A stretch of 31,312 bases of DNA from a virus. Both the position numbers and the translations under genes were made by a program. Location of the stretch: positions 1 through 31,312 of the IMG/VR virus record IMGVR_UViG_3300033153_009591; one strand, 5' to 3'. Below the pieces are notes generated by a model. That model ran no database searches. It saw only the letters and a list, made by a program, of their open reading frames with translations, and was not told the DNA's origin. Shown piece after piece: positions 11,592 to 30,360 of the stretch (positions within the stretch are counted from its first letter, which is position 1; each line of letters begins with the position of its first letter).

Positions 11592-12233
11592 TTATAAAAT
11601 TGCAACTTTTGAACTACTCACCAGCGGCGCCACGATAAAGCTTTTCATTTCGCTATATAAATATTTTAATGAGTTTGAATTTTTGGATTTGAAATTATCT
11701 TTTAAAATCTCTTCTAAACGAAATGTAAAATCTTTTTTGCCTATTTTTTTTAATAAATTTAAAAAATGCTTTCCGAAATTCCTTTGCATTTTTTCAGTTT
11801 CTTTAAAAGTTTCAACTCCCACACTTTTTTTTAAAAAATTTAAAGTTTGAGAAATTTCTTCATTTCCGAAAGTTTTCGGCTTTGCCGTTTCTTTAGAAAC
11901 TCTTGATTTGATTTGATTTGATTTGATTTGATTTGATGTTACTTGACTTGACTTGGTCGCAACTTTTTTGACTTTTTTTTGCGACAATGGGGGCGTCAGT
12001 GTCGCAAGCTTATAATCAAGCCGTTTCTTTCCTTTTTTAGCTCTTGCCTTGTTTTCCATCTGTACCGCTTCACGATATATCGACGCAACCAACCCCCCAC
12101 GCATTGAATTTTCAATTTTTTTATCCGGATTTTCTGCTAATTCAAAAATTGTTTTTAGTATATAATCACAATCTTTTTCATTACAAAATTTTATTTGTTG
12201 AAAATATTGGACGGGTATTCTTAAAATTTCCAT
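11592..12233 (-). CDS. Candidate replication initiator with internal 5-bp iterations
   Basis: This 213-residue protein has an N-terminal helical domain of the kind seen in phage replication proteins (FCNEKDCDYILKTIFELAEN, then SMRGGLVASIYREAVQMENK; DUF6291-like by eye). A basic linker encoded by tandem 5-bp repeats reads as SNQIKSNQIKS. A C-terminal helical domain follows (FKETEKMQRNFGKHFLNLLK). The location next to the AAA ATPase, HTH protein, methyltransferase and RusA, and repeats inside the gene as in lambdoid O genes, suggest replication initiation. No catalytic motif is visible, so the function is inferred. The start follows TTTTTTCTTTTTTATTAGT. Confidence 0.5.
   Translation of the reverse strand: MEILRIPVQYFQQIKFCNEKDCDYILKTIFELAENPDKKIENSMRGGLVASIYREAVQMENKARAKKGKKRLDYKLATLTPPLSQKKVKKVATKSSQVTSNQIKSNQIKSRVSKETAKPKTFGNEEISQTLNFLKKSVGVETFKETEKMQRNFGKHFLNLLKKIGKKDFTFRLEEILKDNFKSKNSNSLKYLYSEMKSFIVAPLVSSSKVAIL
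11903..11955. repeat. Iteron-like 5-bp tandem repeats
   Basis: On the plus strand TTGAT is repeated seven times without error (11903-11937), followed after three bases by three copies of ACTTG (11941-11955). Two 5-bp units equal about one helical turn, so equivalent positions face one side of the DNA. The tract lies inside the candidate initiator gene, where lambdoid phages place their origin. It may be an origin iteron set, or only a slippage-generated linker. Confidence 0.7.
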
Positions 12234-12340
12234 ACTAATAAAAAAGAAAAAACATCACAAACAATAATCCCGCCACTAAACGCACAACTGAAAAGTGGCG
12301 GGGTTATTAACTGCGATAAATGTTGTGCGTTATTTTTCAT
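12221..12340 (-). CDS. Possible 39-residue hydrophobic peptide
   Basis: An ORF starting at ATG (12338-12340) immediately after the TAG of the previous tiny gene. It encodes a peptide with a hydrophobic C-terminal half (GGIIVCDVFSFLLVWKF) and ends 13 bases inside the candidate initiator gene. The junction TAGATG supports coupled translation. However, most of its length coincides with two interleaved inverted repeats, so the DNA may be conserved for structure and the ORF may be incidental. No family is recognised. Confidence 0.35.
   Translation of the reverse strand: MKNNAQHLSQLITPPLFSCAFSGGIIVCDVFSFLLVWKF
12263..12331. other. Interleaved inverted repeats, possible RNA pseudoknot
   Basis: Arm A AATAATCCCGCCACT (12263-12277) pairs with A' AGTGGCGGGGTTATT (12294-12308) over 15 bp with one T-G pair. 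Arm B AACGCACAAC (12279-12288) pairs perfectly with B' GTTGTGCGTT (12322-12331). The order A-B-A'-B' is that of a pseudoknot or of two mutually exclusive hairpins. The single mismatch is a U-G wobble in a plus-strand RNA but A-C in a minus-strand RNA, hinting at an antisense transcript. This is the most GC-rich structured spot in an AT-rich region. Confidence 0.7.
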
Positions 12341-12472
12341 CTATATAATTCTAAAAAAACTAATAATAAAAAGCAAGAGAAAAAGCATTTTACCAGCCAC
12401 CAAAGCGAAAAAAAGCGGGTTGCGCATTAGATCAGGATTAATAGCCGGTAAGATGATTTTTTTACAAAACAT
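12341..12472 (-). CDS. Tiny membrane peptide, 43 residues
   Basis: The peptide begins MFCKKIILPAINPDLMRN and continues into one long hydrophobic segment (PLFFALVAGKMLFLLLFIIS) with a short FFRII end, a typical single-pass membrane peptide. Its ATG (12470-12472) is preceded by TTTCTTAGATAATA, a weak form of the T-tract start element, and its TAG directly abuts the next ATG. It lies between the excisionase-like gene and the candidate initiator. No family is recognised. Confidence 0.55.
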   Translation of the reverse strand: MFCKKIILPAINPDLMRNPLFFALVAGKMLFLLLFIISFFRII

Positions 12473-12515: not shown

Positions 12516-12704
12516 TCATTCATTAGACTTTTCTTTCAAATATTTTTTAATTGTGGAAAGAGGAATTTGCCACCTTTCACTAATTTTAATACAAGGCTTT
12601 AATTTTCCAAGCTTGCAAAGCCTAGTCACTGACCTTGCATTTTTAACATTCAGTAGTTTTGCCGCTTCATTGGCAAAAACTTTTTTTTCTTTTAAGTTTA
12701 TCAT
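12516..12704 (-). CDS. Small helix-turn-helix protein (excisionase/MerR-like)
   Basis: With the ATG at 12704 the protein has 62 residues; a longer form from a GTG at 12731 would add nine hydrophobic residues and is less likely. The sequence KVFANEAAKLLNVKNARSVTRLCKLGKL (first half) followed by KISERWQIPLSTIKKYL is the winged-helix layout of excisionase and MerR-like DNA-binding domains. Such proteins act as excisionases, directionality factors or small repressors. No integrase gene is present in the circle, so a regulatory role is more likely. The start follows TTTATTTTTTATATATA. Confidence 0.75.
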   Translation of the reverse strand: MINLKEKKVFANEAAKLLNVKNARSVTRLCKLGKLKPCIKISERWQIPLSTIKKYLKEKSNE

Positions 12705-14621: not shown

Positions 14622-14753
14622 TTAATTTAAATGTAAGGTTGAATCAAATGGTACATTCTCATTTTTGCAAGCCATTTTTAATTTTGTTTCAAATTTTTTG
14701 ACATCTTTTAGTGTGTCAAAATCAATTTCCATTGTGAAAATTCTTGAGTGCAT
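14622..14753 (-). CDS. Tiny soluble protein, 43 residues
   Basis: Encodes MHSRIFTMEIDFDTLKDVKK followed by a helical stretch and FDSTLHLN. The ATG follows a full T-tract element (ATAATTTCTTTTTTTTAATGTT), the same signal used by clear genes, and the stop is one base from the next start, so it is probably translated. No family is recognised. Confidence 0.55.
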   Translation of the reverse strand: MHSRIFTMEIDFDTLKDVKKFETKLKMACKNENVPFDSTLHLN

Positions 14754-14771
14754 AACATTAAAAAAAAGAAA

Positions 14772-14873
14772 TTATATTACAAAACCGCCGATTTTTCCGG
14801 TGGTTTTGATATGATTAAAAAGCCGGTGATTTTCAAAGTAAAATTCAAAATTATGATCGTAATAATTTTTCAT
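14772..14873 (-). CDS. Tiny protein, 33 residues
   Basis: Encodes MKNYYDHNFEFYFENHRLFN and a short glycine-bearing end (TGKIGGFVI). The ATG follows TTTCTTTCTTAAAAATAAAC, a T-tract-like element, and the TAA stop forms the start of the next gene's T-tract element. It is the first ORF after the promoter at 14976-15004. The role is unknown and the short length leaves doubt. Confidence 0.45.
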   Translation of the reverse strand: MKNYYDHNFEFYFENHRLFNHIKTTGKIGGFVI

Positions 14874-27241: not shown

Positions 27242-27277
27242 TTTTATAAAAAAAGAAATGGCACTTTTTCCGAGATT

Positions 27278-27472
27278 TTATTTAACAATTTCTAAACAGC
27301 TAAATTGTCTTTTATTTTTTTTAATATTTTCTGAAACAATAACTGCCTTTTTTTTGCCGATTCTAATTCCCTTATATTTTACAAAATCAGCAACACAGTT
27401 TTTTTTTACAATTACATTGATTGATTTATTTTTTATAGGGCTTTCAATGTTTTCATCTTTAGTTTTCATCAT
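27278..27472 (-). CDS. Unknown basic 64-residue protein
   Basis: A small lysine-rich beta-type protein (NKSINVIVKKNCVADFVKYK, then GIRIGKKKAVIVSEN) between the tail terminator-like gene and the major tail protein. Two adjacent ATG codons are possible starts, overlapping the previous gene by 14 or 11 bases. No family is recognised. The position suggests a minor head-tail or tail completion factor. Confidence 0.6.
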   Translation of the reverse strand: MMKTKDENIESPIKNKSINVIVKKNCVADFVKYKGIRIGKKKAVIVSENIKKNKRQFSCLEIVK

Positions 27473-27845
27473 TTCGTATCTGAAAAGAAAAATTTGTTAC
27501 TATTTCCCAGCGCCCCTTTTCATCTCGTCCAAGGCTTTGAGGTGTTGCAAGTGCGAATACTCGCATTGCGTGCTTTGATCCTATTGTAATGTGAATTTTA
27601 CGATTAAGCAAATTAAAAATTTCATTCGCTCTTTCCATTGTTTTTCCGTAGTTTTTTTGGCTTCCTCTAGCTATTATCTGAATAGTTGGCAGATCCACAC
27701 TTAATTCTTGATATGGAGAGCCACCACCTGTTTCTATTAAGGTAACACAATCTGCAGGGCTGTCCGGTTGATTTGCTAAAAAAAGAGTTTTACCACTTTT
27801 CAGATCAGTATTTTCCACCAAATATATTTTTGCATCTTCAATCAT
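27459..27845 (-). CDS. Tail terminator / minor capsid 3-like protein
   Basis: This 128-residue protein fits the minor capsid 3/DUF3168-type tail completion family: N-terminal LFLANQPDSPADCVTLIETG, central DLPTIQIIARGSQKNYGKTM, and C-terminal VTNFSFQIR strand. It would cap the tail and join it to the head. Its start overlaps the previous stop (ATGA). Confidence 0.7.
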   Translation of the reverse strand: MIEDAKIYLVENTDLKSGKTLFLANQPDSPADCVTLIETGGGSPYQELSVDLPTIQIIARGSQKNYGKTMERANEIFNLLNRKIHITIGSKHAMRVFALATPQSLGRDEKGRWEIVTNFSFQIRNDEN

Positions 27846-29070: not shown

Positions 29071-29108
29071 ATTTTTTAAAAAAAAGAAAAAAAGGTAAAA
29101 ACCTTTTG

Positions 29109-29133
29109 GAGGCTCTTTTTTTCAAAGAGCCTC
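29109..29133. terminator. Strong hairpin after the decoration-like gene
   Basis: GAGGCTCTTT and AAAGAGCCTC form a perfect 10-bp stem around a 5-base loop. In the minus transcript it is followed by CAAAAGG and a second small hairpin (AAAAGG, ACCTTTTTTT) ending in seven T. It lies 11 bases past the stop of the 71-residue gene and may stabilise or partly terminate the capsid message. Confidence 0.65.
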
Positions 29134-29144
29134 ACAAAAACCTT

Positions 29145-29360
29145 TTATGCCTGTGTTACCAGGGTAAAGGTGCATTCTGCGCTAGTGCCTTTATTTACAT
29201 AAAGCCCACCAGTACCTTTTGCTACATCAGTATCACAAAAAGAACAGCCTTTTTCATAGCCGGCAGTGTCATTTGTCGGCAAAGTTGTCCCCCAAACTTG
29301 GATTTTATACCCACTTGGATTGGTGATATATGTTTCTGATCCGTCATTTTGAAAAATCAT
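29145..29360 (-). CDS. Small head decoration-like protein
   Basis: This 71-residue protein matches a pattern often found right after capsid genes: TTLPTNDTAGYEKGCSFCDT, then a Gly-Thr-Gly-Gly-Leu-Tyr stretch and ECTFTLVTQA end. It may stabilise or decorate the head. The gene is bounded on both sides by hairpins (29109-29133, 29386-29410). Its start follows TATTTCTTTTTAGATAAAAA. Confidence 0.6.
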   Translation of the reverse strand: MIFQNDGSETYITNPSGYKIQVWGTTLPTNDTAGYEKGCSFCDTDVAKGTGGLYVNKGTSAECTFTLVTQA

Positions 29361-29385
29361 TTTTTATCTAAAAAGAAATATTTTT

Positions 29386-29410
29386 GCTGTTTTTTTGAAA
29401 TGAAAACAGC
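29386..29410. other. Hairpin between capsid and decoration-like genes
   Basis: GCTGTTTT and AAAACAGC form an 8-bp stem around a 9-base loop. In the minus transcript no immediate T tract follows, so it is more likely an mRNA-stabilising or processing structure than a full terminator. Confidence 0.6.
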
Positions 29411-29437
29411 GAAAACATTTTTAAACGATAAATATTA

Positions 29438-30319
29438 TTAAGTGATAATATCCACCGCTAATTCATCTCTCATCTCTGCAACCCCGTAAAGAATTTCTAC
29501 AGTTGTAGCGATTCCACCACGATCAGCATCGTAATCCATTCGAACACGAACTGAAAGCCCTGTTTCTACATCAGAAACAACAGAACCAACCGTTCCCATT
29601 CCTGCGGGAATATCCGGCAATGGTCGAACTACTAGCGCCGCAAAGTCTCTGTGAAAAGCCAGATTATGATTTCCAGTAGCAACCGGAATTAACTGACTTT
29701 CAAAAGAATTGAAATTATGAACTTTTCCAATTGCACCATCGGCAATTTTTCCCTTTACTCCAATTTTTTCTGCACTTGTAAAGCGATCGATTGCTAAAGC
29801 CGCCGCATAATCACCTGTTGACATTGCAAGTGTCCAGTTTTCGTCCACTGGTCCCTTATTGTCTATGATTAATTTTCTAGCTCCTAATATCAAAGCTTCT
29901 GTAATCGGGTTTCCTGTGCTCCCTAGAGAGTTAGTCAATCCAGAGTAGAGAGCGAAAATATCATTTTCCACTGCTGTTAAAATTGCAGTCATTCCACTTG
30001 CTACATACCCCTCAATTAGATCATTTCTTGCAAAAGCTTTTTCGGGATCTTCAATTAAGAAAGTAGCCTCTTTATGCTTATTAAGTGTAACACTCACTTT
30101 TGTGCTTGTCACATCTTGAACGGTCCGATCCGCTCCTGCGGTTTTATCGTTTGCCGTTAGTGATCCAAATTTCGGAACATCCACAGAGTCGCCATAACTT
30201 GCCACTTCTGTGTCAAAATCTCGTCTAATCCTTTTTGCTAAAAAAAGATTATCTCGCAATACTCCCATTGCTTTTTGAGCAATAATTGTTGCGTTGTGTA
30301 CATCTAGCGTATTAGCCAT
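29438..30319 (-). CDS. Major capsid protein
   Basis: This 293-residue protein shows the phage coat pattern (P22-like/HK97 fold): an N-terminal helix IIAQKAMGVLRDNLFLAKRI, a VPKFGSLTANDKTAG loop, a LNKHKEATFLIEDPEKAFAR strand, a spine helix (ENDIFALYSGL) and a C-terminal FHRDFAALVVRPLPDIPAGM domain. It follows the scaffold gene and precedes the connectors. Codons are less AT-rich than the early genes. The start follows AATTTTCTTTTTTAAACAAATT, and a CTCGGAAATAGTG element lies in the short upstream gap. Confidence 0.88.
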   Translation of the reverse strand: MANTLDVHNATIIAQKAMGVLRDNLFLAKRIRRDFDTEVASYGDSVDVPKFGSLTANDKTAGADRTVQDVTSTKVSVTLNKHKEATFLIEDPEKAFARNDLIEGYVASGMTAILTAVENDIFALYSGLTNSLGSTGNPITEALILGARKLIIDNKGPVDENWTLAMSTGDYAAALAIDRFTSAEKIGVKGKIADGAIGKVHNFNSFESQLIPVATGNHNLAFHRDFAALVVRPLPDIPAGMGTVGSVVSDVETGLSVRVRMDYDADRGGIATTVEILYGVAEMRDELAVDIIT

Positions 30320-30360
30320 AATTTGTTTAAAAAAGAAAATTATGCACTATTTCCGAGTTC

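Follow-up and report, generated by a model that had tools for sequence, protein, structure and literature searches.

In the rep leaders of I-complex plasmids, translation of a leader peptide opens the RNA structure and is coupled to the initiator. These leaders are subject to both pseudoknot and antisense control (PMC10724649 and, cited there, a 1998 paper by Asano and Mizobuchi). In phage lambda, pO and OOP have been described and the O protein binds iterons at its origin (PMC3985674), which is located within gene O (PMC6022878). Control of replication initiation by RNA is a familiar theme in plasmids and has been little described in phages, and hardly anything is known about gene control in the phages of uncultured candidate-phyla bacteria.

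Here we examine a 282-nt gap within a 31,312-base viral record from IMG/VR, the whole of which was analyzed and is referred to below as the window. The gap separates an HTH_17 gene (12516-12704) from a gene encoding a 213-aa protein (11592-12233). We tentatively favor the reading, at a little under even confidence, that positions 12240-12456 of the minus strand constitute a structured, non-coding, cis-acting 5' leader of the mRNA for an O-like initiator, in which one loop segment, B', is shared by two partners, B1 and B2.

The leaders of I-complex and IncL/M plasmids (repZ/repA; ColIb-P9) are alike in three respects: a structured leader precedes the initiator gene, a hairpin loop is complementary to a second leader segment near the initiator start, which gives a pseudoknot, and a small open frame overlaps the initiator start. 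At the locus described here, the predicted complementarity of the loop extends over 10 bp for B1:B' and over 10 bp, with 2 G.U pairs, for B2:B', and the overlapping frame is a codon-poor one of 39 aa. Unlike the plasmid systems, the element belongs to a phage and has two competing partners, B1 and B2, and no homology to their RNAs or initiators was found. By analogy, the leader may work like the rep leaders of the I-complex.

The genome and its putative O-like initiator gene

All 48 genes called across the window lie on the minus strand, which bears out an earlier statement that any plus-strand RNA would be antisense to every gene. The called genes end in TAA, TGA or TAG, with TGA being frequent, and among their products are an SPP1-type portal, a P22-like coat protein, a terminase, a Sak4-like annealing protein, an N6/N4 DNA methylase and a peptide deformylase. 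Close relatives of the Sak4 protein are carried by four phage records (L111, L112, L189 and L190) that require TGA to be read as Gly, and TGA is likewise recoded in the cellular genomes with the nearest Sak4 proteins, genomes that fall in the class of a Gracilibacteria MAG. Because L111 and L112 are readable only with code 25 (TGA = Gly) and the nearest cellular Sak4 proteins come from TGA-recoded genomes, the host of the window phage is probably a candidate-phyla bacterium, presumably one in which TGA remains a stop. The window phage, in which TGA is a stop, and the records in which TGA encodes Gly represent related phages on either side of the code change.

Upstream of the gap, the minus-strand gene at 12516-12704 encodes a small DNA-binding protein of the HTH_17 or excisionase-like type (Pfam HTH_17, 4.7e-8). 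Downstream, the product of the minus-strand gene at 11592-12233 yielded no direct match in family searches, and its predicted fold (pLDDT 44.6) was too poor for a structure search. Residues 120-206 of this 213-aa protein share 42-47% identity with the C-terminus of a 273-aa protein encoded by L111 and L112, and the N-terminal HTH of the L111 protein matches phrog_678, 'replication initiation O-like', at 6e-13, a match that the window protein does not share. The assignment of the 213-aa gene as a putative O-like replication initiator is supported by the shared C-terminal domain and by context, as opposed to a full-length family match. The four records with TGA = Gly were the sole source of an O-like homologue found for this gene. 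Within the gene, TTGAT is repeated in tandem 10.6 times (11903-11955), and two units span 10 bp, or one helical turn; by analogy with lambda O, this array is a candidate set of origin iterons.

An interleaved inverted repeat adjoins the putative initiator gene

The first-pass annotation had pointed to two alternating inverted repeats, A-B-A'-B', beside a candidate initiator gene, and this arrangement is real. Read on the plus strand, A (12263-12277; AATAATCCCGCCACT) is complementary to A' (12294-12308) at 14 of 15 positions, and B (12279-12288; AACGCACAAC) to B' (12322-12331) at all 10; the successive spacers measure 1, 5 and 13 nt. In the minus-strand reading that is used from here on the names switch, such that B1 denotes 12322-12331 and B' denotes 12279-12288. 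Under composition-weighted scoring, no inverted repeat of the window outranks the A core, and B belongs to the first five. For the two interleaved stems jointly the score is 22.5, which none of 400 dinucleotide shuffles attained; the best of them scored 19.2. A single stem equal to A was present in 12 of the 400, which indicates that the unusual thing is the combination. These shuffles, together with the O-like domain of the neighboring protein, support the earlier proposal that a non-chance interleaved structure with the potential to form a pseudoknot adjoins a replication-initiator-like gene.

The odd A:A' pair is T.G, which amounts to U.G in plus RNA and to C.A in minus RNA. The earlier description of a plus-strand wobble as the sole mismatch holds for the 15-bp core and fails beyond it, where the stem of the minus RNA reaches about 23 pairs and includes four that are G.U.

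Two hairpins and two partners for one loop in the minus RNA

On the minus strand, the 282-nt gap ranks first for structure among the nine largest gaps of the window (z about -5). The core of hairpin P2 (12263-12308, minus) is formed by A and A' around a 16-nt apical loop (12278-12293), with a pairing probability of about 1.0 on both strands. In the minus RNA, pairs read off the sequence extend P2 to 12254-12317 and to 22-23 pairs, with the lower stem represented by C12313-G12258 at p = 0.999; the G.U pairs of the extended hairpin (12318.12253, 12314.12257, 12311.12260 and 12309.12262) are mismatches in plus RNA. The apical loop contains B' (12279-12288, minus; GTTGTGCGTT), and its perfect 10-bp partner B1 (12322-12331, minus; AACGCACAAC), the candidate pseudoknot partner, lies upstream of P2.

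The sense strand also forms a second hairpin that was absent from the first-pass annotation. In this hairpin, P1 (12386-12455, minus), 12438-12451 pairs with 12390-12403 through 14 continuous pairs, of which 4 are G.U, and encloses a 34-nt loop. A fold scan of 1040 windows of 120 nt across both strands placed the segment containing P1 (12361-12480, minus) second, with a z of -5.94, and only the tandem repeat at the contig ends was stronger. Within the P1 loop is B2 (12419-12428, minus; AATGCGCAAC), a kissing-loop candidate that differs from B1 at two positions, C to U and A to G, both of which still pair with B' as G.U in minus RNA and become A.C mismatches in plus RNA. The predicted B2:B' loop-loop duplex comprises 10 bp at -13.1 kcal/mol, which was matched by 10 of 5000 shuffled versions of the P1 loop; the loop-loop test was made after the sequence was seen, and its p-value (about 0.002) is therefore to be discounted. 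Besides B2, the window has just two further sites that can pair with B' over all ten bases. The computed minus-strand structure is one of two stable hairpins, with B1 upstream of P2, B2 in the loop of P1, and both segments complementary to the same 10 bases of B'.

We propose that B' would pair either with B1, as a pseudoknot, or with B2, as kissing loops, and never with both. When folding was followed along the growing minus transcript, B1:B' formed first (-12.5 kcal/mol at 72 nt) and P2 then overtook it. During transcription, B1:B' would correspondingly come first, and P2 would take over once A' is made. Structures forced to contain B:B' were less stable, by ~7 kcal/mol in the plus RNA and ~16 kcal/mol in the minus RNA, which suggests that B:B' pairing is relevant only as a pseudoknot or transiently; in non-pseudoknot folding, the probability of B1:B' was 0. 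The geometry of the H-type pseudoknot is strained, with a 1-nt linker beside a 10-bp stem. The B1:B' pseudoknot would also use a 13-nt linker that is otherwise paired as the lower stem of P2. Because the pseudoknot needs this linker, the choice of partner would set whether the lower stem, which abuts T6CT6 and the initiator start codon, is closed. Closure of the lower stem would in turn set the amount of initiator, through attenuation or ribosome access. If real, the element would be a compact RNA switch that is built of three segments and precedes an initiator gene. We consider it unlikely that this proposal holds in full, as an RNA switch in a candidate-phyla phage that acts on the initiator, has no Rfam match and lets one hairpin loop choose between the B1 pseudoknot and the B2 loop.

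The T-rich tract before the initiator start

Directly below P2 and just before the initiator ATG is a T6CT6 tract (12240-12252, minus), which fits the U-rich element seen ahead of ATGs in this phage. A motif of C followed by at least five T occurs no more than 30 nt from 18 of the 48 gene starts, compared with 4.8% of all minus-strand ATGs, and a Shine-Dalgarno sequence is present at few gene starts. Because the motif recurs near so many starts, T6CT6 is not specific to this place; it is probably the ordinary pre-start element of the phage, perhaps with double duty. Similar U-rich elements (TTTCTTTTT-like) stand before many ATGs, for example at 29361-29380, 30320-30339 and 12240-12252, and a few similar starts, with T-runs and without a Shine-Dalgarno sequence, are seen in relatives L006-L011 and L088.

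Predicted burial of the initiator start codon is unexceptional, ranking 7 or 26 of 48, and sequestration of this codon was set aside as a distinguishing feature. As in attenuators and intrinsic terminators, the tract immediately follows a hairpin on the sense strand; unlike in those elements, the hairpin has a 16-nt loop and a weak stem base, and the T-tract also precedes many other genes. P2 was rejected as an intrinsic terminator, which would combine a GC-rich stem, a loop of 3-8 nt and an immediate U-tract: its 16-nt loop is too long, and a terminator scan found none here.

The proposed leader in relatives and databases

Single-sequence scans with the initiator, Sak4, TerL and portal proteins returned no close relatives. 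Alignment scans recovered TerL and portal relatives at about 30% and Sak4 relatives at 48-54%, and the leader element was found in none of them. It is absent from L111 and L196, both of which have an O-like gene; this gene begins 3 nt past the end of the preceding frame in L111 and 44 nt past it in L196. When the DNA of IMG/VR was scanned for the exact core of A or of B, the 17 matches were unrelated, for the most part GC-rich, and lacked interleaving. Single-sequence covariance models, for P1 and P2 across 19 sources and for P2 also across 353 class genomes and 11 records, matched only themselves. Rfam returned nothing at gathering, with the best matches at chance level (E 0.12-4.7), and searches for plasmid or phage DNA similarity produced only short, chance-level matches. 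Because no relative carries the element, the function of the leader is inferred rather than shown.

Which strand acts as RNA

The first-pass annotation had placed the RNA on the plus strand. That inference is weakened by the stronger fold of the gap in minus RNA (z -5.3, versus -3.7 in plus RNA) and by the pairing of P1 and B2, which is specific to the minus strand. The 15-bp A core is better by one wobble in plus RNA (15 versus 14 pairs), whereas the other elements prefer minus RNA. Because the helices were selected by minus-strand folding, the G.U asymmetry is suggestive only as a sign of strand. A plus-strand two-state switch between A and B, as raised earlier, is disfavored because hairpin A forms once A' is made, before B' is made and with a pairing probability of 1.0. 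Taken together, the sense strand is favored but not proved as the functional RNA strand.

Weighing the proposed leader against other explanations

The fold z of the gap, the absence of comparable interleaved repeats from 400 shuffles, the B2 result, the order of folding, the O-like neighbor and the poor coding scores of the frames within the gap suggest a leader. This reading is weakened by the lack of a homologue, the leaderless O-like genes of L111 and L196, the better A core in plus RNA, the ordinary burial of the start codon, the strained pseudoknot and the commonness of the T-run.

Next best after the cis-acting leader, and fairly unlikely in our judgment, is a plus-strand antisense (counter-transcribed) RNA of ~100 nt that would extend from near 12234 to the T5 at 12333-12337 and limit initiator synthesis, either by kissing the sense leader via the complementary A loop, as plasmid copy-control RNAs do, or in the manner of lambda OOP. 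Its A hairpin would have 15 continuous pairs, T5 directly follows 12322-12331, and a well-placed promoter-like site, TTGAAA-18-TAAAAT (12198-12227, plus), which matches at 10 of 12 positions and has a frequency of 0.023 such matches per 60 nt of plus strand, offers a possible start. However, the promoter scan overall found no more sites than in shuffles, no terminator was called at the site by the terminator scan, the last hairpin contains four G.U pairs and is weak, and P1 and B2 are meaningful in minus RNA only. The location of this candidate, between a small HTH regulator gene and a repeat-bearing O-like gene, parallels cII-oop-O of lambda. Unlike this candidate, OOP targets cII mRNA; the plus-strand evidence here consists of the promoter-like match and the short T-run only, and the sense strand has the stronger structure.

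The repeats could instead act as DNA, as part of an origin, a protein-binding site or a single-stranded hairpin site by the initiator gene and near the TTGAT array, which we regard as distinctly unlikely. The region adjoins an O-like initiator gene whose TTGAT copies resemble the iterons of lambda O, but that array is itself the better origin candidate. In addition, the G.U-rich helices of P1 and of the lower stem of P2 make imperfect palindromes as DNA, and no GC-skew sign change occurs here, though the genes all run one way.

Very unlikely is the absence of any function, with the gap being a lineage-specific remnant whose structure is fortuitous. In its favor, conservation is nowhere shown and relatives are without the element; the interleaved shuffles, the fold z and the B2 complementarity argue against it in combination.

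The region also contains two tiny frames that had been put forward as membrane peptides, possibly of a type I toxin-antitoxin module: one of 43 aa with a hydrophobic C-terminal half (12341-12472, minus) and one of 39 aa that overlaps the initiator start by 13 nt (12221-12340, minus). Both are indeed open on the minus strand, whereas their status as coding sequences did not hold up. Their codon log-odds of -0.26 and -0.10, scores equaled or exceeded by 63% and 30% of spurious ORFs, respectively, fall within the range of spurious ORFs (mean -0.22) and no higher than the bottom 1.3% of real gene segments (average +0.30), at least 98% of which score higher, and protein family searches gave no match for either. 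Because these codon statistics are non-coding, the toxin-antitoxin and tiny-gene readings are weakened, and both frames are probably not genes. That one or both are real, as a leader peptide or as the hydrophobic toxin of such a pair, is highly improbable. Hydrophobic frames arise by default on T-rich strands, whereas the U-rich sequence ahead of both starts and the tight packing (TAG then ATG at 12341-12340, as well as the initiator overlap) are a mild argument for coding.

Other structured segments of the window

The contig ends (1-114 and 31199-31312) consist of an identical 48-bp unit in 2.4 perfect copies each, and the genome probably closes through this array, which is also predicted to fold strongly (z -9.9 at 1-120, minus). 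A long imperfect hairpin (AAACCGCCGATTTTTCCGGTGGTTT) occupies 14690-14830 within a 454-nt gap, with a scan z of -4.25. Strongly folding minus-strand segments at 29080-29225 and 29335-29470 lie on either side of a small gene (29145-29360), which is preceded by two long hairpins and followed by a perfect GAGGCTCTTT hairpin and a T-run, an ordinary terminator. The longest plus-strand frame of the window is a 106-aa ATG frame at 27258-27578, which lies partly inside a 217-nt gap.
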